From: Pseudonocardia sp. ICBG1293
GTDB taxonomy: Bacteria; Actinomycetota; Actinomycetes; Mycobacteriales; Pseudonocardiaceae
Assembly (NCBI RefSeq): GCF_020131355.1
Contig: NZ_JAHLEL010000044.1
Coordinates: 124,001-188,000 of the forward strand
Direction: 5' to 3'
Length of the DNA stretch: 64,000 nucleotides
The position numbers and the translations under genes are program-made. Of this stretch, positions 16,446 through 29,204 are shown piece after piece. Below the pieces are notes generated by a model. It was not told where the DNA came from. It saw only the letters and a program-made list of their open reading frames with translations, and ran no database searches. Numbering within the stretch: the stretch's first letter is position 1; each line of letters starts with the position of its first letter.

Positions 16446-18833
16446 TCAGGCGCCGACGTAGGCCGCGAGGTGCACCCCGGTCAGCGTCGACCGGGCGACG
16501 ACCAGCTCGGCCGGGGTCCCCTCGAACACCAGGGTGCCGCCGTCGTGGCCGGCGCCGGGGCCGAGGTCGATGATCCGGTCGGCGTGCGCCATCACGGCCT
16601 GGTGGTGCTCGATGACGATCACCGAGCGGCCGCCGTCGACGATCCGGTCCAGCAGTGCGAGCAGCTGCTCGACGTCGGCGAGGTGCAGGCCGGTGGTGGG
16701 CTCGTCGAGCACGAACGTCGTCCCGGACTCCCCCAGGTGCACCGCCAGCTTCAGCCGCTGGCGCTCCCCGCCGGACAGCGTCGTCAGCGGCCGGCCGAGG
16801 GTGAGATAGCCGAGTCCGACGTCGGCCAGACGCTCCAGGATCCGGTGCGCGGCCGGGACGCGTGCCTCGCCCACCCCGAAGAACTTCTCCGCCTCGGCCA
16901 CCGGCATCGCCAGGACCTCGCTGATGTCGCGCCCGCCGAGGGTGTAGGCCAGCACCGAGGCGTCGAAGCGGCGTCCGTCGCAGACGTCGCACGTGGTGGC
17001 GACCCCGGCCATCATCGCGAGGTCGGTGTAGACGACGCCGGCCCCGTTGCAGTTCGGGCAGGCGCCCTCGCTGTTCGCACTGAACAGCGCGGGCTTGACG
17101 CCGTTGGCCTTGGCGAACGCCTTGCGGATCGGTTCCAGCAGTCCGGTGTAGGTGGCCGGGTCGCTGCGCCGCAACCCCTTGATCGCGCCCTGGTCGACGA
17201 CGACCACCCCGTCGCGCCCGGCGACCGAACCGTGGATCAGCGAGCTCTTGCCCGACCCGGCCACCCCGGTGACGACGGTGAGCACCCCGAGCGGGACGTC
17301 GACGTCGACGCCGCGCAGGTTGTGCCGGTCCGCACCGCGGATCTCCAGGTGACCCGACGGGGTCCGCACCGACGGCTTGAGCGACGCCCGGTACTCCAGG
17401 TGCCGCCCGGTCAGCGTGCCCGAGGCCCGCAGACCGGCGAGGTCGCCGGTGTAGACGACGTGTCCCCCGTCGGAGCCCGCCCGCGGCCCCAGGTCCACGA
17501 CGTGGTCGGCGATCCCGATGGTATCCGGCTTGTGCTCCACCACGAGCACGGTGTTGCCCTTGTCCCGCAGCCGCAGCAGCAGGTCGTTCATCCGGGCGAT
17601 GTCGTGCGGGTGCAGCCCGATCGTGGGCTCGTCGAAGACGTAGGTGACGTCGGTCAGCGACGACCCAAGGTGCTTGATCATCTTGGTGCGCTGGGCCTCG
17701 CCGCCGGACAGCGACCCGGACGGCCGGTCCAGCGACAGGTAGCCGAGCCCGATCTCGACGAAGGAGTCGAGCGTGTCGCGCAGCGACGCCAGCAGCGGGG
17801 CCACCGTCGTGACGGTCGCGCTCCGCTCCGCTCCGTCTCCGTCGGCCCGCTCGAGCCCCCGGACCCAGTCGGCGAGGTCGGAGATCTGCATCGCGCAGGC
17901 GTCGGCGATGGAGATGCCCCGGATCTTCGAGGAACGGGCGAGCTCGGACAGGCGCGTCCCGTCGCAGTCCGGGCAGCGCTGGAACACGATGGCCCGGTCG
18001 ACGAACGCCCGGATGTGCGGCTGCATCGCCTCCCGCTCCTTGGCCAGGAACGACTTCCGGATCCGCGGGATCAGCCCCTCGAAGGTGACGTTGACGCCGT
18101 CGACCTTGATCCGGGTGGGCTCCTTGTGGAGCAGGGCGTTCAGCTGGGGCCTCGTGAAGCTGCTGATCGGCTTGTCGCCGGGGAAGAAACCGGAGTTGGC
18201 GAAGATCCGGCCGTACCAGCCGTCCACGGAGTAGTTCGGGATCGTGAGCGCGCCCTCGACGATCGACTTCGACTCGTCGTAGAGGGCCGTGAGGTCGAAG
18301 TCGGACACCGAGCCGCGGCCCTCGCACCGCGGGCAGGCACCGCCGACGATCTCGAACTCGCGGCGTTCCTTGACCTGCTGGCCGTTCTTGCGGACGGTCA
18401 CCGCGCCGGAGCCGCTGATCGTCGCGACGTTGAAGGAGAACGCCTTCGCCGGACCGGCGTAGGGGGTGCCGAGCCGGCTGAACAGGATCCGCAGCAGCGC
18501 CCCGACGTCGGTGGCGGTGCCGACGGTGGAGCGCACGTCGCCGCCCATCCGCTCCTGGTCGACGATGATCGCGGTGGTGAGACCGTCGAGGACGTCGACG
18601 TCCGGGCGCCCGAGGGTCGGCATGAACCCCTGGACGAAGGCGGAGTAGGTCTCGTTGATCATCCGCTGGGACTCCGCGGCGATCGTGGCGAACACCAGCG
18701 AGCTCTTGCCCGACCCGGACACGCCGGTGAACACGGTGAGCCGCCGCTTGGGCAGCTCGACGGAGACGTCGCGCAGGTTGTTCTCGCGCGCGCCGTGCAC
18801 GCGGATCAGGTCGTGGCTGTCGGCTGCGTGCAT
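16446..18833 (-). CDS. UvrA-like tandem ABC ATPase (DrrC-type drug resistance family)
   Basis: 795 aa with two UvrA-type ATPase modules: Walker [10 protein letters not shown] and GVAGSGKSS; signature and Walker [12 protein letters not shown] ... [13 protein letters not shown] and [11 protein letters not shown] ... [13 protein letters not shown]. Zinc-finger CxxC pairs CPRC, CPDC, CPNC and CDVC are present. It is shorter than housekeeping UvrA (about 950 aa). Such short UvrA paralogues are linked to resistance against DNA-binding drugs (family knowledge). ATG 18833 has a G-rich ribosome site (GGGGGGAA). The upstream neighbour is a VOC-family remnant, a class that also includes antibiotic-binding proteins. 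Confidence 0.9.
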
Positions 18834-18858
18834 GTCGTTCCCCCCGGTCCGGCCCTGC

Positions 18859-19033
18859 TCAGGGCCGCTGCTGGATGCGGACCATCGTGCCCGCGGGGTC
18901 GCGGAGGGCACGGTCGCGCATCCGGTACGGCTGGTCGGCCGGCTCCCCGGACGACCTCGGCGCCACTCCCCTGGAGCCTGTCGAACGCGGCGTCGAGGTC
19001 GTTACCGGAGGGGTGGGTGCCCTCGGCCGTCAT
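18859..19033 (-). pseudogene. VOC/glyoxalase-family remnant
   Basis: Only the C-terminal half of a VOC protein remains: NDLDAAFDRLQGSGAEVV in one frame, then EPADQPYRMRDRALRDPAG and TMVRIQQRP in another, ending at the TGA at 18859-18861. The frame switch coincides with a run of four C (GGGG on the coding strand) at 18945-18948, as for one extra base. The N-terminal half of the fold is not found upstream. It ends 26 bases before the UvrA-like start. The upstream 140 bases to 19173 hold no recognisable gene. Confidence 0.7.
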
Positions 19034-21220: not shown

Positions 21221-21535
21221 GCCGCTCCCCTGCCCCGCCCGGTCGCGGCGACCCCGGGCGAGCACGGTGGCATCCGTCGCGGCCGCAACCCCTCGGACCG
21301 TGCGCCGTGCGTGGGCGGGGGGGGTGCGTGGGAGCTCCACGCACCCCGCCGTCGCACTGTTGCCGTCGCGGTCGGCCGGCCCCGACCCCGCCTCCACCTG
21401 CATCGCCCCGCAGTCGTCCCGCCGGCGGGACGGGCGTGCGTCCTGCGCCCGTCCCCGGGCGACGCGACCTCCTCGGTCCCCGCGGCGCGCGACGACGCCT
21501 CCCTCGCCGCGCGGATCGGTCGGCGGACCTCCCGC
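21221..21535. other. intergenic, no gene seen
   Basis: 315 bases between the zinc-ribbon gene and the hexapeptide array. Long open frames here on both strands have no homology I recognise and no ribosome sites. Apart from the hairpin at 21321-21347 I see no feature. Confidence 0.5.
21321..21347. terminator. bidirectional hairpin terminator
   Basis: Perfect 11-bp stem (GGGGTGCGTGG / CCACGCACCCC) with loop GAGCT. It lies 100 bases after the zinc-ribbon gene and about 190 bases after the last hexapeptide frame on the other strand, so it could end both transcripts. Confidence 0.6.
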
Positions 21536-21556
21536 TCACCAGTTCCAGTTGCGCAC
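21536..21556 (-). CDS. hexapeptide mini-ORF 1 (MRNWNW)
   Basis: Six sense codons and TGA: GTG start, Arg, Asn, Trp, Asn, Trp. A G6 run serves as ribosome site 7 bases upstream. This copy lies 121 bases beyond copy 2 and is also in frame with a longer candidate (start ATG 21586, 16 residues ending in the same RNWNW), so it may be the tail of a slightly longer peptide. See the finding on the array for the argument that it is translated. No homologue is known to me. Confidence 0.55.
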   Translation of the reverse strand: MRNWNW

Positions 21557-21636
21557 GATGCGTCCCCCCGTCTTCCGGCCCCACTCCATATCGATCACCA
21601 TTTCCCGTAGTACCGGTCGACTCCGGCCCGCTCCCC

Positions 21637-21652
21637 GGGCCGGGACCGGCCC
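21637..21652 (-). other. short hairpin between mini-ORFs 2 and 1
   Basis: GGGCCGG / CCGGCCC arms with only 2 bases between them, directly after mini-ORF 2 on the minus strand. It may be a weak terminator, processing site or attenuator between the copies. Confidence 0.4.
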
Positions 21653-21656
21653 GTGA

Positions 21657-21677
21657 TCACCAATTCCAGTTGCGCAC
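21657..21677 (-). CDS. hexapeptide mini-ORF 2 (MRNWNW)
   Basis: GTG-started six-codon frame encoding the same peptide as its neighbours; the second Asn uses AAT instead of AAC, a synonymous difference. Ribosome-site-like GAAGG about 8 bases upstream. The 60-base unit that ends here matches the unit ending at mini-ORF 3, including a shared GGTTCGAGCG-type block. Confidence 0.65.
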   Translation of the reverse strand: MRNWNW

Positions 21678-21716
21678 AACACGCCCTTCTTCTCGCTCGA
21701 ACCCACCTCGCCGCGG

Positions 21717-21737
21717 TCACCAGTTCCAGTTGCGCAC
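21717..21737 (-). CDS. hexapeptide mini-ORF 3 (MRNWNW)
   Basis: GTG-started six-codon frame with the best ribosome site of the set, AAGGAG at 7 bases. Same peptide. Exactly 60 bases from mini-ORFs 2 and 4. Confidence 0.68.
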   Translation of the reverse strand: MRNWNW

Positions 21738-21776
21738 GACACGACTCCTTCCCCGCTCGAATCCGTCCGGAATGCG

Positions 21777-21797
21777 TCACCAGTTCCAGTTACGCAT
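21777..21797 (-). CDS. hexapeptide mini-ORF 4 (MRNWNW)
   Basis: First of the array in the direction of transcription. ATG start (others use GTG) and CGT for Arg (others CGC), so the peptide is unchanged. A purine-rich GGGAGGGGG ribosome site ends 9 bases before the ATG. About 420 bases separate it from the divergent diguanylate cyclase gene; no promoter can be assigned with confidence in that gap, which has CCGGAA/TTCCGG repeats at about 21872-21907. Confidence 0.68.
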   Translation of the reverse strand: MRNWNW

Positions 21798-22217
21798 CGA
21801 CGATCACCCCCTCCCGTGTCACCGCACGGCACCGGCGGACGTCCGGTCGACGAGCTCCGGCGATGCACACGGCCGGAATCACCGGAATCCGTGAGAACGG
21901 TTCCGGACAGCGCGACCGATTCCCGCCGTGCACGACGACCTCCACTCACGACCGGGCCACCCACTACGCCGAATGGCCTCACCGGCACGACGACGTCAGG
22001 TGACCGCACACGCGGTGCCGCCCTGCTCCGGGAGCGGCTCCGACAGGGTAGGCGAGGAACATCGGCACGTCAGCGCCTTAGTTGATCTTGAATGCCGGCC
22101 GGGGAGTCGCGCGCCGACCTCTGGAGCGGGGAGCGCGGCACGACTGAGCAGCGAGGAAGGCACCGGCGGCGACTATGCTGGGGCCGAGATCGAACGATCT
22201 ACGATTCGAGGAAATCG
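21798..22217. other. intergenic between mini-ORF array and diguanylate cyclase
   Basis: 420 bases with no recognised gene. It contains CCGGAA and TTCCGG repeats (21872-21907) and -10-like TATGCT and TACGAT hexamers shortly before 22218 that may serve the cyclase gene. Must also hold the promoter of the minus-strand mini-ORFs if these are transcribed from nearby. Confidence 0.45.
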
Positions 22218-23561
22218 GTGAACCGACCCGCCGCCCGGAGCGCTCTCCGGTCCTGGTGGGCGGAGTGGCACCTGTGGTCTCTCCCGGCGCCGGTCCGGGT
22301 GTTACTCGTCGCGGTCGAACTCGCCGCTGTGTGCCTGCTCACCGTCGATATCGCGGTCCACGGCCTTCCCCGGGACGGATCACTGTGGTGGACCGCGGGC
22401 GCGCTACTCGTCTTCAGCGGCGTGCACGCGGAGATCTCCTTGCGGGCAGAGCGATTACGGCGCCGTATCGCCGATACCCGGTACATCGATCTGAGTTCGG
22501 TCTGGACTTTCGCCGGCGCTCTCCTGCTGCCGCCGGCACTCGCCGCGTCCACCGTGATCGTCAGCTACACACATCTGTATTTCCGGGTGTTCCGACCGGC
22601 CGGCACTCCGCCGCACCGGCAGTTCTACTCGACGTCCACCGTCGTCCTGGCCGTCTACCTGGTCGCCTCGGTCCGGTACGGGTTCGAGGCCGTCGGCGCC
22701 ACCACGTCCTGGCTCGCGGTCGTGGAGGTCCTCGCCTGCCTGGTCGTGTACACCGGCACGAACATGCTGCTGGTGGTCGGCGTCATCCGGCTGACCCAGC
22801 CGCGCAGCAGGTTCCTCGCGATCCTCGCCGGCGGCGACGTCGGCCTGGAGACGGCCACCCTGTGTCTCGGCGGCCTCGTGGCCACCACCGTGGTGCCGGA
22901 CCACGTCCTGCTCGTCGGGCTGGTGCTCCCCGCGCTGGTGCTGATGGAACAGACCACGCTGATCCGGCAGCTGGAGACCCGGGCCGCGACCGATGCCAAG
23001 ACCGGTCTGCTCAACGCCGAGGGGTGGCGGTCGCGGGCCCGGCTGGTGCTCGCGACCGCGGAGCGCGACAGGTCCGGCGGCGGGGTGCTGATCCTCGACC
23101 TCGACTTCTTCAAGGAGGTCAACGACCGCTACGGCCACCTGGTCGGCGACGCGGTGCTCCGCGCCGTGGCCGAGGCCATCAGCGACGAGATCCGCGACCG
23201 CGACGCCGCGGGCCGGTTCGGCGGGGAGGAGTTCGTCGTCGCGCTGGCCGGGGTCCGCGGACGGCCCGACCGTGACGGGGGTGCGGTCCGCGAGGTGGGC
23301 GAGCGGATCCGCCGACGGATCGAGCAGCTGCACGTCCGGGTCGACGACGAGGTCCCCGTCCAGGTCGCCGGCCTGACCGTGTCGGTCGGCGCCGCCGTCC
23401 ACCCGGGGGCGGGCCGCGACCTCGACGTCCTGCTCGCGGCGGCCGACGAGGCGCTCTACGCCGCGAAGGGCGCCGGCCGCAACCGGGTCCTGGTCCGGCA
23501 CGGACCCCGCACCCCGTCGCCGCCCGGCCCGTCCGTGCCCGCGCCCCGCCCGGGGGCCTGA
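22218..23561 (+). CDS. membrane-bound diguanylate cyclase (GGDEF)
   Basis: 447 aa. Six or so transmembrane helices in residues 15-235 (VRVLLVAVELAAVCLLTVDI and following), a short linker, then a GGDEF domain with the active signature RFGGEEF and an intact RxxD inhibitory site (RDRD) exactly five residues before it. This predicts c-di-GMP synthesis from GTP with product inhibition. GTG 22218 is chosen because GAGGAAA precedes it at 6 bases; the frame is open to 22092 but without a ribosome site. The C-terminal 20 residues are Pro-rich. In actinomycetes c-di-GMP controls development through BldD (family knowledge). Confidence 0.92.
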   Translation: MNRPAARSALRSWWAEWHLWSLPAPVRVLLVAVELAAVCLLTVDIAVHGLPRDGSLWWTAGALLVFSGVHAEISLRAERLRRRIADTRYIDLSSVWTFAGALLLPPALAASTVIVSYTHLYFRVFRPAGTPPHRQFYSTSTVVLAVYLVASVRYGFEAVGATTSWLAVVEVLACLVVYTGTNMLLVVGVIRLTQPRSRFLAILAGGDVGLETATLCLGGLVATTVVPDHVLLVGLVLPALVLMEQTTLIRQLETRAATDAKTGLLNAEGWRSRARLVLATAERDRSGGGVLILDLDFFKEVNDRYGHLVGDAVLRAVAEAISDEIRDRDAAGRFGGEEFVVALAGVRGRPDRDGGAVREVGERIRRRIEQLHVRVDDEVPVQVAGLTVSVGAAVHPGAGRDLDVLLAAADEALYAAKGAGRNRVLVRHGPRTPSPPGPSVPAPRPGA

Positions 23562-23614: not shown

Positions 23615-24619
23615 TCAGGTCGGGAGCAGGTACTCCTCGCTGGCGTGGTGGCAGGCGCTCGGGTGGTGCCCGCCCGGCCGGGTCACCAGCGGCGGCTCCT
23701 CGGTCGCGCAGATGTCGGTGGCCTTCCAGCAGCGCGTCCGGAACCGGCACCCGCTAGGGGGGTCCACCGGGCTCGGAACGTCACCGGTCAGCCGGATCCG
23801 GGTGCGCCCCTCCCGGACCGAGGGGTCGGGCACCGGGACCGCGGACAGCAGCGCCTGGGTGTAGGGGTGCGACGCGCGCGTGTAGATCTCGTCCTCCGTC
23901 CCCAGCTCGACCATCTTGCCCAGGTACATCACGCCGACCCGGTCCGACAGGTGCCGCACGACGGACAGGTCGTGGGCGATGAAGATGTAGGACAGGCCGA
24001 ACTCGCGCTGCAGGGTGCCCAGCAGGTTCATCACCTGCGCCTGGATGGAGACGTCCAGGGCGGACACCGGCTCGTCGCAGATGATGATCTCCGGCTTGAG
24101 CGCGAGCGCCCGGGCGATGCCGATGCGCTGACGCTGCCCGCCGGAGAACTGGTGCGGGTAGCGGTTGACGAAGTCCGGGTTGAGCCCGACGACGTCGAGC
24201 AGCTCCTGCACCTTCGCGCGCCGCTCGCCCTTCGGTGCGACCTCCGGGTGGATCTCGAACGGCTCCCCGACGATGTCGGCGACCGTCATCCGGGGGTTCA
24301 GCGACGTGTAGGGGTCCTGCAGCACGATCTGCATCTGCCGGCGCAGCGCCCGCAGCTCCGCACCGCGACGGGCGAAGATGTCCTCGCCGTGGAAGCGCAC
24401 CGAGCCCGACGTCGGCGGCTCCAGGCGCATCAGCACCTGGGCCAGGGTCGACTTGCCGCAGCCGGACTCACCGACGATGCCCAGCGTCTCGCCCTTGCCC
24501 AGGGAGAACGACACACCGTCGACGGCGCGGACGTGCCCGACGGTCCGCTTGACCACCGCCCCGACCTTGACCGGGAAGTGCTTGACGAGGTCGTCGACCT
24601 CGAGGACGGGCTCGCTCAT
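23615..24619 (-). CDS. peptide-type ABC transporter ATP-binding protein (DppF/OppF-like)
   Basis: 334 aa. ATPase with Walker [11 protein letters not shown]-loop [11 protein letters not shown], signature [16 protein letters not shown], Walker [13 protein letters not shown] and H-loop FIAHDLS, plus the C-terminal oligopeptide-transporter extension with Cys residues ([16 protein letters not shown]) that in homologues binds an Fe-S cluster or forms a structural site. Energises import by the adjacent permeases at the inner face of the membrane. Overlaps the preceding ATPase gene by 4 bases. Last gene of the operon. Confidence 0.95.
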
Positions 24620-25641
24620 ACGAGATCCTCCGCGAACAGGCAGGCCGACGCCCGCGCACCGGGCAGCGGGATCAGCGGCGGGTCGGTCTCCCGACAGCGG
24701 TCCACCGCGCGCGGGCAGCGCGGGTGGAACGGGCAGCCGTCGGGGATGGCGGTCAGCGTCGGCGGGAGGCCGGTGATCGCCCGCAGCTCGGTGCCCTTGC
24801 TGTCCAGCCGCGGGATCGAGGCCAGCAGCGCCTCGGTGTAGGGGTGGGCCGGGTTCGCGAAGAGCTGGTGCACGTCGCCCTGCTCGACGATCCGCCCCGC
24901 ATACATCACCGCGATCCGGTCGGCAACCTCGGCGACGACGCCGAGGTCGTGCGTGATGAGGACCAGCCCCATCTCCCGCTCGCGCTGGATGTCGGCCAGC
25001 AGGTCCATGATCTGGGCCTGGACGGTGACGTCGAGCGCGGTCGTCGGCTCGTCGGCGATGAGCACGTCGGGGTCCAGTGCCAGCGACATCGCGATCATGA
25101 CGCGCTGGCGCATGCCGCCGGAGAACTCGTGCGGGAAGTTCGTGACCCGCTGCTTCGCCCCCGGGATCCCGACCAGGTCGAGCAGCTCGACGGCACGGGT
25201 ACGCGCGTCGCGCTTGCTCATGCCCCGCCGGGTACGGAGCTGCTCACCGATCTGGAACCCGACGGTGAACACCGGGTTCAGCGCGGACAGCGCGTCCTGG
25301 AAGATCATCGCGACGTTCTCGCCACGCAGCTCCCGGCGCCGTTCCTCGGTCGCGGAGAGCAGGTCCTCGCCGCGGTAGCGGACGGCGCCGCCGGCGATCC
25401 GGGCGGGCGGCATCGGGAGGATGCCCATCACCGTGTTCGCGGTGACCGACTTGCCGGAGCCGGACTCGCCCAGCACGGCGAGGGTCTCCCCCGCGTGGAC
25501 GTGGTAGTCCACCCCGTTCAGCACCCGGGCGACGCCGTCGCGGGTGCGGAACTCCACGTGCAGGTCCTCCACCTCGAGCAGCGGCACACCGGCCTGCCCG
25601 GTCCCGGCCGGTGCCGGGGTCGCCTGGGTGTCGGGACTCAT
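24616..25641 (-). CDS. peptide-type ABC transporter ATP-binding protein (DppD/OppD-like)
   Basis: 341 aa. Walker [12 protein letters not shown]-loop [11 protein letters not shown], signature [16 protein letters not shown], Walker [14 protein letters not shown]-loop LITHDLG, and the C-terminal [14 protein letters not shown] extension. Partner of the ATPase downstream. ATG 25641 overlaps the permease stop by 4 bases, which fixes the start although the frame is open further upstream. Confidence 0.95.
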
Positions 25642-26576
25642 GACCGGCCCTTCGGGTCGAACGCGTCGCGCACCGCGTCGCCGAGCAGCACGAAAGCCAG
25701 CACGGTGACGACGAGGAACGCGCCGGGGAACAGCAGCAGGTGCGGCGAGGTGCGCAGGTAGCTCTGCGCCTCGCTGATCATCACGCCCCAGGACACGACG
25801 GGGTCGCGCAGGCCGACGCCGAGGAACGACAGCGTCGCCTCCGCCCCGATGAACGCACCGAGGGCGATCGTCGCGTACACCATCACCGGGGCGATCGTGT
25901 TGGGCAGCATGTGCCGCCGGATGATCCGCCACGGGCTCGCACCGAGGGCGCGGGCGGCCTTCACGTAGTCCTGGTTGCGGGCGGCGATCGCGGCGGACCG
26001 CATGATCCGCATGACGATCGGCCAGGACAGCAGCCCGATCGTGCCGATCACCAGGCCGCTGATGCCGAGCACGCTCTGCCCGACCGAGGTCCGGAAGGTG
26101 GAGAGCACGACGATCGCGCCGAGGATGAACGGCACGCCGAAGAAGACGTCGGCGATGCGGGCGAGCAGCGAGTCCACCCAGCCGCCGGCGAACCCGGCGA
26201 TCAGGCCCATGACGGCGCCGACGAGCACGACCGCGGTCGTCGCCAGCACCCCGACGACGATCGAGACCCGGGTGCCGTAGACGGTGCGGGCGAAGACGTC
26301 GCGGCCGAGGTGGTCGTAGCCGAACCAGGCCTGGGCCGACGGGTCCTGCCGAGCCCGTGACAGGTCGCCCACGGTCGGGTCGACGGAGGTGAACAGCTGC
26401 GGGAACGCGGCCATGACCAGGAGGAACGTGATGAGTCCTGCCGCGACGAGGAACAGCGGACGACGGCGCAGGTCGTGCCAGGCGTCGCCGCTGAGGCTGC
26501 GGGTGCGGGCCGACGCCTCGGCACGGCCGTCGGTGGCCACGGGCTTGTCGGCCGTGGCGGTGGTGGGGTCAGTCAA
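25638..26576 (-). CDS. peptide-type ABC transporter permease (DppC/OppC-like)
   Basis: 312 aa with an N-terminal cytoplasmic tail of about 30 residues, a first membrane helix (PLFLVAAGLITFLLVMAAF), an OppC-type periplasmic loop, and five further helices. The EAA-loop is YVKAARALGASPWRIIRRHM. Forms the channel with the DppB-like protein. Overlaps its upstream neighbour by 8 bases and its downstream ATPase by 4. Confidence 0.94.
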   Translation of the reverse strand: MTDPTTATADKPVATDGRAEASARTRSLSGDAWHDLRRRPLFLVAAGLITFLLVMAAFPQLFTSVDPTVGDLSRARQDPSAQAWFGYDHLGRDVFARTVYGTRVSIVVGVLATTAVVLVGAVMGLIAGFAGGWVDSLLARIADVFFGVPFILGAIVVLSTFRTSVGQSVLGISGLVIGTIGLLSWPIVMRIMRSAAIAARNQDYVKAARALGASPWRIIRRHMLPNTIAPVMVYATIALGAFIGAEATLSFLGVGLRDPVVSWGVMISEAQSYLRTSPHLLLFPGAFLVVTVLAFVLLGDAVRDAFDPKGRS

Positions 26577-27495
26577 GGCGGATCCTCGGGTCGAGCAGGG
26601 CGTAGGTGACGTCCACGACCAGGTTCGCGAGCAGGTAGACGATCACCAGCAGGACGACGACGCCGGTGACGACCACCCCGTCGAGCCGCTGGATGGACCC
26701 GAAGATCAGCCCACCGATGCCGCGGATGTTGAAGATGCCCTCGGTGACGATCGCGCCGCCCATGAGCGTGCCGAAGTCGGCGCCGAGGAAGGTGATCACC
26801 GGGATCGCCGAGTTGCGGGTCAGGTGGACGCCGACGACCCGACGCCGGGTCAGGCCCTTCGCGGTCGCCGTGCGGACGTAGTCGGCGCGCAGGTTCTCCG
26901 CGATCGAGGTGCGGGTCAGCCGGGCCACGTAGGCCAGTGACAGGCTGCCGAGCACGTAGCCGGGCACGATCAGGTCCAGGAACCCGGGGTCGGCCGGGAC
27001 GGTCGGCGGGATCAGGCCCAGCCGCAGCCCGAGGACCGACTGCAGCACGTAGCCGGTCACGAACACCGGCACCGCGACCAGGAACAGCGTCGCGGTGAGC
27101 ACGACGTTGTCCAGGAACCCCCCGGGCCGCAGCCCGGTGAGCACACCCGCGGTCAGGCCGATGATCGCCTGGATGACCAGCGCGACGACCGCGAGCTTGA
27201 TCGTGACCGGGTAGGCGTTCGCGATCAGCGTCGCGACCTCCTGGCCGCGGAAGTTCTCGCCGAAGTCGCCCCGCAGCAGGTTGCCGAGGTAGGTGAAGTA
27301 CTGGACGAAGATCGACTGGTCCAGCCCGTACTCCTCCCGCATGCGCTCGATGAACGCGGGCGGACAGGCCTGGTCGCCGCACTTGCCGGCGAGCGGGTCA
27401 CCGGGCAGCGCCCAGACCATGAAGTAGATGAGGAACGTGGTGCCGAGGAAGACCGGCACGAGCTGCAGGAGTCGTCGCAGGACATAGCGCCCCAC
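26569..27495 (-). CDS. peptide-type ABC transporter permease (DppB/OppB-like)
   Basis: 308 aa, six transmembrane helices starting with LLQLVPVFLGTTFLIYFMVW; the typical MxxxxGLDxS-like segment here reads MREEYGLDQS, and the EAA-loop is DYVRTATAKGLTRRRVVGVH. The extracytoplasmic loop after helix 1 has two Cys (KCGDQACPP). Separated from the binding-protein gene by 98 bases that hold a 15-bp hairpin. Confidence 0.94.
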   Translation of the reverse strand: MGRYVLRRLLQLVPVFLGTTFLIYFMVWALPGDPLAGKCGDQACPPAFIERMREEYGLDQSIFVQYFTYLGNLLRGDFGENFRGQEVATLIANAYPVTIKLAVVALVIQAIIGLTAGVLTGLRPGGFLDNVVLTATLFLVAVPVFVTGYVLQSVLGLRLGLIPPTVPADPGFLDLIVPGYVLGSLSLAYVARLTRTSIAENLRADYVRTATAKGLTRRRVVGVHLTRNSAIPVITFLGADFGTLMGGAIVTEGIFNIRGIGGLIFGSIQRLDGVVVTGVVVLLVIVYLLANLVVDVTYALLDPRIRLD

Positions 27496-27541
27496 GGGTC
27501 ACCTCCGGGTTCGGGGTCCGGCGGTTCGCGCCGGGCACGTG

Positions 27542-27575
27542 CACCGGCGGCCGGGTGGTGACCCGGCCGCCGGTG
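27542..27575 (-). terminator. intercistronic hairpin between binding protein and permease genes
   Basis: Perfect 15-bp stem (CACCGGCGGCCGGGT / its complement) with loop GGTG, 19 bases after the binding-protein stop. Its place after the first cistron suggests partial termination or 3'-end protection, giving more binding protein than membrane components. Confidence 0.65.
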
Positions 27576-27593
27576 TGTGGTGGTGGGACGGCG

Positions 27594-29204
27594 TCACTCC
27601 TGGACGGTCACGCTCTCCAGGTCCAGCTCACGGCCGAAGGTCATCTCGACGTTCTGCAGGCGCGGCGACCAGCCGAACTGCGCGGACTGGTCGTTGATCG
27701 CGACGCCCGGCATGTCCTGGATCAGGACGCGCTCGGCCTCGGCCCACAGCGCGTAGGCCTCCTCGGCGGTGGCCGCGGTCGAACCCTGGTTGACCAGGGC
27801 GTCGAAGCGCGGGTTGGTGTAGCCGCTGTTGTTGTTCGCCGCCCCCGTCGTGTACTGCGGGCGCAGCACGTACTCCATGGTCGGGGTGGAGGCGACCCAG
27901 CCGGAACGGAAGATCCCGGTCAGGTTCTCGGCGCGGCGCTGCTCCAGGAACTCCGAGAAGGTCGGCACCGGGACGAAGTTGCAGGGCACACCGAGGGTGT
28001 TGCTGATGCTGACGCAGGCGGCCTGCATCCACTCGCGGTTGATCGCCGAGTCGACGTTGGAGATCAGCTCGATCGGGCCGGTGAAGCCGGAGGCGTCGAA
28101 CTGCTGCTTGGCCCGCTCCGGGGAGAAGGTGCACAGCTCGCCGCACTGGTCGTCGACCTTGCCGGGCACACCCTCGGGGATGAACCCGGTGGCAGGCTGG
28201 ACGAGTCCGTTGTAGACGTTGTTGATGATCGCCTCGCGGTCCACGGCCATCGAGATCGCCTGCCGCAGCTGCGGGTCGGCGTAGCGCTGGTCGTAGATCG
28301 GGAAGGTCATCGTGTGGATGCCGGCGTAGGGCTGGTTGCCGTTCCGGTCGGCCAGGTCCTGCTGGTACAGGTTGTCGATCAGGAACGAGCCCGGGATGGA
28401 CTCGAGGAAGTCCAGGTTGCCGCTGACGACGTCCTGGTAGGCGGCCTCGCTGTCGGCGTAGAAGCGGAACTCGACGCCGCCGACGGAGACGGGCTGCTCA
28501 CCACCCCACTCCTCGTAGCGGGTCACGGTCACGTTCTGGTCGGGGACGCGGGCCTCGAAGCGGAACGGGCCGTTGCCGACGGGGTTCGCCTCGAAGGCCG
28601 CCGGGTCGGCGAAGAACGACTCGGGCATCGGGTAGAACGCCACGTCGCCGAGGGTGTTCACGAAGATCGGCGACGGCGCGCTCAGCGCGACGGTGAAGGT
28701 GCGGTCGTCGACGACCTGCAGACCCGACATCGTCTGCGCCGTCGGCTCCCCCTCGGCCGGGCTGACCTGGTCGAACCCGGCGATGTTGGAGAAGAAGTCC
28801 GAGCTGGACTGCGCGTTGGTCTTCAGGGCCACGTAGTTCCACGCGGCGACGAAGCTCTTCGCGGTGACGGGCGTGCCGTCGTGGAAGGTCCAGCCCTCCT
28901 TCAGGCGGATCGTCCAGTTCTGCGAGTCGGGGGACTCGATGGACTCGGCGACCTTGTTCTCCGGCTCGCCCTGCTGGTTGTAGTCGACCAGACCGGACCA
29001 CAGCGCGTCGAGGATCTTGCTGCCGCCGACCTCGCGGGTGTTGCCCGGCAGCAGTGCGTTCTCCGGCTCGGTGCCGTAGACCGAGATCGTGGGGGCGCCC
29101 TGGGCGTCGCCCGTGGTGCCGCCTCCCCCGCCGCCACAGGCGCTGAGCACCAGCGCGGAGGTCAGGGAGAGCGCGAGCAGCGCCGCGACTCGAGGTGATC
29201 GCAT
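27594..29204 (-). CDS. ABC transporter substrate-binding lipoprotein (SBP_bac_5, DppA-like)
   Basis: 536 aa. Lipoprotein signal peptide with lipobox LSAC (Cys at about residue 23) and a Gly-rich tether, then the family-5 extracellular solute-binding fold (ENKVAESIESPDSQNWTIRL, GTPVTAKSFVAAWNYV, RQAISMAVDREAIINNVYNG). Anchored on the outer face of the membrane, delivering peptides or related ligands to the permeases downstream. ATG 29204 has an AGGA site 6 bases away. A -10-like TACCGT lies at 29285-29280. The ligand is not predictable from sequence alone. Confidence 0.94.
   Translation of the reverse strand: MRSPRVAALLALSLTSALVLSACGGGGGGTTGDAQGAPTISVYGTEPENALLPGNTREVGGSKILDALWSGLVDYNQQGEPENKVAESIESPDSQNWTIRLKEGWTFHDGTPVTAKSFVAAWNYVALKTNAQSSSDFFSNIAGFDQVSPAEGEPTAQTMSGLQVVDDRTFTVALSAPSPIFVNTLGDVAFYPMPESFFADPAAFEANPVGNGPFRFEARVPDQNVTVTRYEEWGGEQPVSVGGVEFRFYADSEAAYQDVVSGNLDFLESIPGSFLIDNLYQQDLADRNGNQPYAGIHTMTFPIYDQRYADPQLRQAISMAVDREAIINNVYNGLVQPATGFIPEGVPGKVDDQCGELCTFSPERAKQQFDASGFTGPIELISNVDSAINREWMQAACVSISNTLGVPCNFVPVPTFSEFLEQRRAENLTGIFRSGWVASTPTMEYVLRPQYTTGAANNNSGYTNPRFDALVNQGSTAATAEEAYALWAEAERVLIQDMPGVAINDQSAQFGWSPRLQNVEMTFGRELDLESVTVQE

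Follow-up and report, generated by a model that had tools for sequence, protein, structure and literature searches.

Arrays of peptide minigenes head-to-head with membrane GGDEF genes in Pseudonocardia and other actinobacteria: candidate signal-receptor modules

In the SHP/ComS-Rgg, Phr-Rap and phage arbitrium AimP-AimR systems a tiny peptide gene lies beside the gene for its receptor. Within a module the peptide hardly varies, whereas the peptides of different modules diverge, and the receptor diverges along with them. The SHP/ComS, Phr and AimP peptides are made as longer precursors, and their targets are cytoplasmic regulators. Ligands of membrane GGDEF proteins are usually unknown, and c-di-GMP governs development and antibiotic production in actinomycetes. 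Very small genes are also found among the biarylitide (byt) precursors, where bytA homologues can be multicopy, with six reported in one Lysinibacillus strain (PMC13417212, available part); that part of the text has no match for MRNW or Pseudonocardia at the start of a word.

The locus described here lies in a 64,000-nucleotide stretch of the genome of Pseudonocardia sp. ICBG1293 (the window). It consists of an array of hexapeptide minigenes and a divergent gene for a membrane GGDEF protein. The array probably makes a private peptide that serves as ligand for the membrane sensor of the adjoining diguanylate cyclase, array and enzyme forming a matched signal-receptor module. This reading is based on the linkage of the two, on selection on the peptide and on co-variation of the peptide with the membrane domain, all of which are seen in the sequences.

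The window array and its GGDEF partner

The four minus-strand MRNWNW copies at 21536-21797 that the initial annotation had reported were confirmed by reading the sequence, as were their spacing (60, 60, then 121 bases) and the statement that they differ solely in ATG/GTG, CGT/CGC and AAC/AAT. Each minigene is 21 nt long (seven codons including the stop) and has the general form [AG]TG-CG[CT]-AAC-TGG-AA[CT]-TGG-TGA. The 121-base gap is equivalent to about two 60-base steps and contains an in-frame TGG-TGA at 21595-21600, which apparently belongs to a decayed fifth copy. A Shine-Dalgarno (SD) sequence had been assigned to every copy. This holds for genes 2 and 3, but the SDs of genes 1 and 4 are weak, being G-rich stretches only (Table 1). 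A promoter consensus scan of the window intergenic region found none, and an Rfam scan of the window found no family at the gathering threshold.

Table 1. Positions of the features of the array region within the window
Feature	Position	Strand	Remarks
Peptide gene 1, first in transcription order	21777..21797	-	ATG CGT AAC TGG AAC TGG TGA = MRNWNW; weak G-rich SD (GGAGGGGGTGA) 5'
Peptide gene 2	21717..21737	-	GTG CGC AAC TGG AAC TGG TGA = MRNWNW; SD AAGGAG at 7 nt
Peptide gene 3	21657..21677	-	GTG CGC AAC TGG AAT TGG TGA = MRNWNW; SD AAGGG at 6 nt
Presumed decayed fifth unit	21595..21615	-	CGG TAC TAC GGG AAA TGG TGA, no start codon; presumed from the 60-bp register
Peptide gene 4	21536..21556	-	GTG CGC AAC TGG AAC TGG TGA = MRNWNW; weak SD GGGGGGA
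G+C-rich hairpin 3' of array, possible terminator	21418..21463	-	energy -30.6, z -0.9, alone not significant
Divergent intergenic region, array to GGDEF gene	21798..22091	.	presumed home of both promoters
Membrane GGDEF protein gene	22092..23561	+	489 aa from first ATG; true start may be further downstream
N-terminal multi-pass membrane domain, proposed peptide sensor	22266..22979	+	about 7-8 hydrophobic segments by eye; peptide tracking
GGDEF catalytic domain, GGEEF active motif and RxxD I-site	22983..23486	+	PF00990, E 3.4e-35

The gene content around the arrays was compared at 22 loci, mostly of 20 kb: the window, two others of the source genome (G000) and 19 of relatives. Only the GGDEF family is represented at every one of them; the runner-up occurs at nine. 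The GGDEF gene is directly divergent from the array and adjacent to it at 20 loci, and lies within about 4.3 kb at the remaining two (L059 and L065). The initial annotation had overlooked this divergent gene for a membrane GGDEF protein, which is the key partner of the array. Among the aligned partners the motif GGEE[FLI] is present in 66 of 66 proteins and the RxxD I-site in 62 of 66; by these motifs the partner is a diguanylate cyclase. The rule used for GGDEF open reading frames (ending near the array) left L059, L065 and L071 out of the 22-locus protein alignment, and hence out of the 66-protein set and the co-variation tests. An AlphaFold model built from two sequences had a mean pLDDT of 38.9 and was unusable.

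At L059 (G008:C1:1582880-1602879), an MRNWHW locus, the membrane and GGDEF parts of the partner are in separate reading frames with another gene between them, and the array contains the deviant copies MRNRHW and MRNWRW. L059 is possibly a degenerating module.

Elsewhere in the window, a complete-looking oligopeptide/dipeptide ABC importer operon (23615-29204, minus strand; two ATPases with oligo_HPY, two permeases and SBP_bac_5) ends beside the GGDEF gene. Gene clustering did not group this operon with genes of the other array loci. An 821-aa ABC-ATPase at 16446-18911 on the minus strand, with ABC_tran above the cut-off and a DnaJ-type Cys motif below it, looks UvrA-like.

Distribution of the arrays and selection on the peptide

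In the 7.96 Mb source genome the pattern TGCGNAAYNNNNNNTGGTRA (MRNxxW followed by a stop) matches eight times and its reversed control not at all. All eight matches adjoin four paralogous multi-pass membrane GGDEF genes, found by the membrane-domain profile. Four of the matches are the MRNWNW copies of the window; two encode MRNWGW, one MRNRGW and one MRNWDW, the MRNWGW and MRNRGW genes being situated at a two-GGDEF locus beside dxs.

The pattern search in relatives that the initial annotation had proposed was run with RTGMGNAAYNNNNNNTGGTRA, and the peptide pattern recurs. Genes of 18-27 bases are far under the usual gene-calling limits, yet 44 of the 62 genomes searched in the genus contain a total of 338 matches, compared with four for the control pattern. 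Among the genus matches listed, at least four (G004:C94, G015:C15, G016:C15 and G023:C6) are not beside a listed GGDEF match. The exact tandem MRNxxW pattern was found in none of 328 other genomes of the family and in none of 395 others in the phylum sample; outside the genus the same place is occupied by other peptide sequences. A search for RNWNW in distant genomes gave 15 stretches, two of which were checked for the GG[DE]EF motif: L013, from a Pseudonocardia MAG, was positive, and L014, from Actinomadura, was negative within its 8 kb.

At eight of the 22 loci (L023, L057, L058, L061, L063, L067, L068 and L071) the array is found immediately upstream of dxs, which was identified by NCBIfam on a 406-residue partial protein. 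A leader peptide of dxs was rejected, as the N, H and D arrays have other positions and the neighbour that the arrays share is the GGDEF gene.

The wider family was surveyed in 99 upstream regions taken solely by way of the GGDEF membrane domain. Of these, 39 are from the genus (one duplicate having been dropped), 40 from other genera of the family and 20 from a class sample, of which 19 belong to one family (f92) and one to f102. Arrays of at least two similar peptides occur in 40 of the 99 regions (15/39 in the genus, 10/40 in other genera and 15/20 in the class sample), these counts being rough because a peptide gene was scored only if it had an SD-like stretch and a length of 5-9 codons. 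A further 21 regions have one gene that fits a lenient motif, which was written after the peptides had been seen; on the opposite strand this was so in 0 of 59. The remaining 38 regions have no peptide gene by the rules used. Among them, L138, L151 and L160 hold longer reading frames with a repeated core and L109 has an MRNRDWT gene farther off. In the class sample, peptide genes are found in 19 of 20 regions by eye and in 18 by script, which misses L160.

For all 121 regions together, arrays of at least two were found on the divergent strand in 57, on the opposite strand in none and in mononucleotide shuffles in 0 of 363. Twenty-two of the 121 regions had been chosen for their peptide pattern, and 17 of these 22 count as arrays of at least two; L080, which has the same array as L059, was dropped before the counts were made. 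The reversed controls (no match in three pattern searches, and 4 against 338 genus-wide), the opposite strand and the shuffles all argue against a chance origin.

The peptides of the family are 5-8 residues long and the arrays have up to about 22 copies. The genus arrays include M[RS]NKSW (22 copies), MRNHNW (13) and MRNRTWI (7), and MRNKNW, MRNRAW, MRNRSW, MRNWGF, MRNWGI, MRGWEW and MAKNWGW are further peptides of the genus. In other genera, arrays of M[ATR]NRDN (11 copies), M[RCG]SRDN (7), MRTREH (3) and MSKDL (10, with M[RH]SKDL interspersed) were found, besides the peptides MRNKDW, MRDRGN and MRDKIW. The class-sample arrays are MRDNTWT and MRDNNWN (8 copies each), MRDTTWS (12, with one MRDTTWR), and MRANSWD and MRGNSWD (5 each). 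Reading frames with a doubled core are present at L127, L152 and L160, examples being MRDNNWRDNNWR, MADKIWRDKIW and MRDTNWVLRDTNWSW. As some frames carry the core twice, trimming of the peptide is suggested. Two GGDEF relatives from other genera, L138 and L151, have a longer upstream frame with the repeated motif GRPSEW..., two cores per frame.

It had been proposed that the product is under selection, rather than the DNA. This is borne out, the pattern of synonymous differences seen in the window being found family-wide. In 43 arrays of at least three units, the single-nucleotide codon variants comprise 49 synonymous and 14 non-synonymous changes, compared with 18.3 and 44.7 expected; non-synonymous changes are therefore not as frequent as synonymous ones. 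At core positions 3-6 three variants change the amino acid and 33 are synonymous (57 arrays, 302 units), counted by position, with the five-residue MSKDL array one position out of register. Most replacements fall at positions 2 (14) and 7 (4). Serine is encoded by both AGC and TCC inside one array at L104, L108, L110, L174 and L175, a swap that keeps the residue and changes the codon family. Since the amino acids are kept while the codons change, the peptide itself is the product; its core, NxxW in the genus, spans about four residues, and its second residue is loosely constrained. Between modules the cores differ, giving 32 modal peptides.

Co-variation of the peptide with the membrane domain

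Upon comparing the peptides with their partners in a partial Mantel test, the peptide was found to be correlated with the membrane domain given the GGDEF domain (r=0.49, p=0.0005). The correlation with the GGDEF domain given the membrane domain was r=0.06 (p=0.21). Both values are for 60 of the 66 proteins, with labels permuted and phylogeny not removed. The labels were assigned by hand and trimmed to six letters; six proteins that had no peptide label entered neither the Mantel nor the pair tests.

Pairs of proteins with different cores have extra divergence in part A of the membrane domain given GGDEF (p 0.0096 and 0.0002 at two cut-offs, phylogeny not removed). Extra divergence is found in part B too (p 0.048 and 0.0002), and that of part A exceeds that of part B (p 0.049 and 0.007). 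The GGDEF domain has no extra divergence given either part of the membrane domain (p 0.67-0.86). A few permutations in this test yielded empty groups.

The dxs-linked orthologue allows a closer comparison. Between L057 (G-type) and L067 (E-type, both copies changed), 43 of 162 positions differ in part A, 2 of 80 in part B and 17 of 188 in the GGDEF domain. The corresponding differences in the same-peptide pair L023 and L057, both G-type, are 18 of 162, 2 of 80 and 23 of 189. Exchange of a block is possible at this orthologue, because silent and replacement differences both rise. Part A is also the fastest part in several same-peptide pairs (54% in L062/L070 and 69% in L182/L183).

Six GGDEF proteins without an array were included in the tree. 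Five of them form one clade and the sixth, L067b, lies inside the MRNRGW clade, showing that a partner can lose its peptide. Some GGDEF members have lost their peptide or never had one. Overall, the core is constant inside a module, diverse among modules and co-varies with the sensor part, as in pheromone-receptor pairs, although kinship is not removed from this comparison.

Proposed mechanism, alternatives and known systems

If the array supplies the ligand of its own cyclase, it would yield a high dose of free peptide, perhaps trimmed at the N-terminus. Repeating the tiny genes would boost the dose without a longer precursor. The peptide would then bind the membrane domain of its GGDEF partner, either from within the cell or once it has left it, and binding would set c-di-GMP synthesis. 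Distinct peptides would keep several modules of one genome apart. Among the roles first suggested for the array, that of a multicopy signal peptide fares best.

The direction of control might be reversed, the c-di-GMP made by the GGDEF enzyme gating the array and the peptide acting elsewhere, on the cell surface, on neighbours or on another receptor. The BldD consensus is nTnACnC(A/T)GnGTnAn (PMC7374567, in the part available). If no more than one mismatch is allowed, BldD-box-like sequences precede 11 of 72 arrays or single units, compared with 0-3 in ten shuffles, and with two mismatches they precede 33 of 72, compared with 12-21; upstream pieces shorter than 150 nt were dropped from the scan. 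However, several of the 11 loci are orthologues, and so not independent, the window array is not preceded by any box at the one-mismatch limit, and the changes in the peptide follow the membrane domain, not the catalytic domain. Reversed control is unlikely; feedback of c-di-GMP on the array via BldD may occur at some loci.

Two other sequences recur upstream of the arrays. In 12 arrays of the class sample (regions L156-L173) GACAAT lies 64-177 nt ahead of the first peptide gene, and at 14 loci of several genera CATACT lies 65-219 nt ahead of it. Both are possibly promoter elements.

The peptide could also stay in the cell and serve, docked in the membrane domain, as a cofactor or inhibitor that is always present, not as a signal. 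It has no signal sequence, gene clustering at the 22 loci found no exporter or protease family conserved beside the arrays, and an aromatic C-terminus with an arginine would fit a membrane interface. Against this, the peptides diversify between modules and species, as signals more typically do, and the doubled cores suggest processing. Such an intracellular subunit is improbable; it is a variant of the proposal that the peptide binds its own partner, not its opposite.

The analogy with biarylitides and other P450-crosslinked peptides drawn in the initial annotation is unsupported. Minimal RiPP precursors, crosslinked by a P450 or radical SAM maturase encoded elsewhere in the genome, would account for the small size and M-R start, as in the five-residue biarylitide precursors, and for the multiple copies. 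Nevertheless, the motif FGxGxHxCxG was not found in reading frames of at least 250 aa at the 22 loci, mostly of about 20 kb, this being one strict expression that would miss atypical P450s. The expression CxxxCxxC has three matches, solely at L023 and L064. With GGDEF as the sole shared family and many arrays without an aromatic pair (MRNRDN, MSKDL, MRNKSW), this origin is very doubtful.

An RNA-level or translational device (leader attenuation, a ribosome or tRNA sink, or a non-coding repeat) would explain the repeated units of SD and short frame, and hairpins with z <= -2 are found within 120 nt 3' of 20 of 55 arrays, in a rough test in which the shuffles were scanned at coarser steps (55 of the 57 arrays were kept, downstream pieces shorter than 120 nt or containing N being dropped). 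It is hardly credible, since residues are kept as codons change, including the AGC/TCC serine swaps, and no downstream gene family is common to the 22 loci; the sensing of Trp, which had been another suggestion, fails because homologous arrays (MRNRDN, MSKDL, MRSRDN) have no Trp and no downstream family is conserved at all loci.

That each array encodes the ligand of the adjoining cyclase is the preferred reading. If it is true, the minigenes would, to our knowledge, rank with the shortest directly encoded signal genes, and their products would be the first class of peptides known as ligands of GGDEF sensors. The arrays would also provide a ligand for a class of membrane GGDEF proteins and would tie short-peptide signalling to c-di-GMP. 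More tentatively, the arrays may represent a peptide language widespread among actinobacteria, in which bare minigenes with tetrapeptide cores would provide private signals read directly by the membrane domains of matched diguanylate cyclases. Peptide signals would in this way act on the c-di-GMP control of development, with orthogonal channels within a genome and variants particular to lineages among relatives. As peptide and sensor adjoin and diversify together, the specificity of peptide for enzyme is directly testable with synthetic hexapeptides.

The family of peptide-minigene arrays head-to-head with membrane GGDEF genes is apparently previously undescribed. A literature search, the scope of which left aside most subscription papers and bioRxiv preprints, found no description of such arrays beside GGDEF genes and no peptide partner for MASE-type GGDEF proteins. 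The latter (Pfam MASE) resemble the partner in having a multi-pass N-terminal membrane domain and a GGDEF domain with GGEEF and I-site. A MASE profile scan of four partner proteins gave one match, to MASE9, at 20 bits, below the cut-off of 24.3.

The biarylitide precursors are similar in being encoded by genes of 5-6 codons, often with an M-R start, which gene callers easily miss (PMC13417212, available part). They have a dedicated P450, whereas here the neighbour is a membrane GGDEF protein and no P450 motif was found near. Their aromatic-x-aromatic core (Y/W/H) is found here just in MRNWxW and MRNHNW-like peptides, and not in MRNKSW, MRNRDN, MSKDL or MRNRAW.

The logic of the Rgg/SHP, Rap/Phr and arbitrium pheromone systems, with dedicated peptide genes beside a receptor-like gene, is shared by the modules described here. 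In the latter, however, the gene encodes little more than the bare peptide and can occur in as many as 22 copies, with a membrane GGDEF protein as the presumed receptor.
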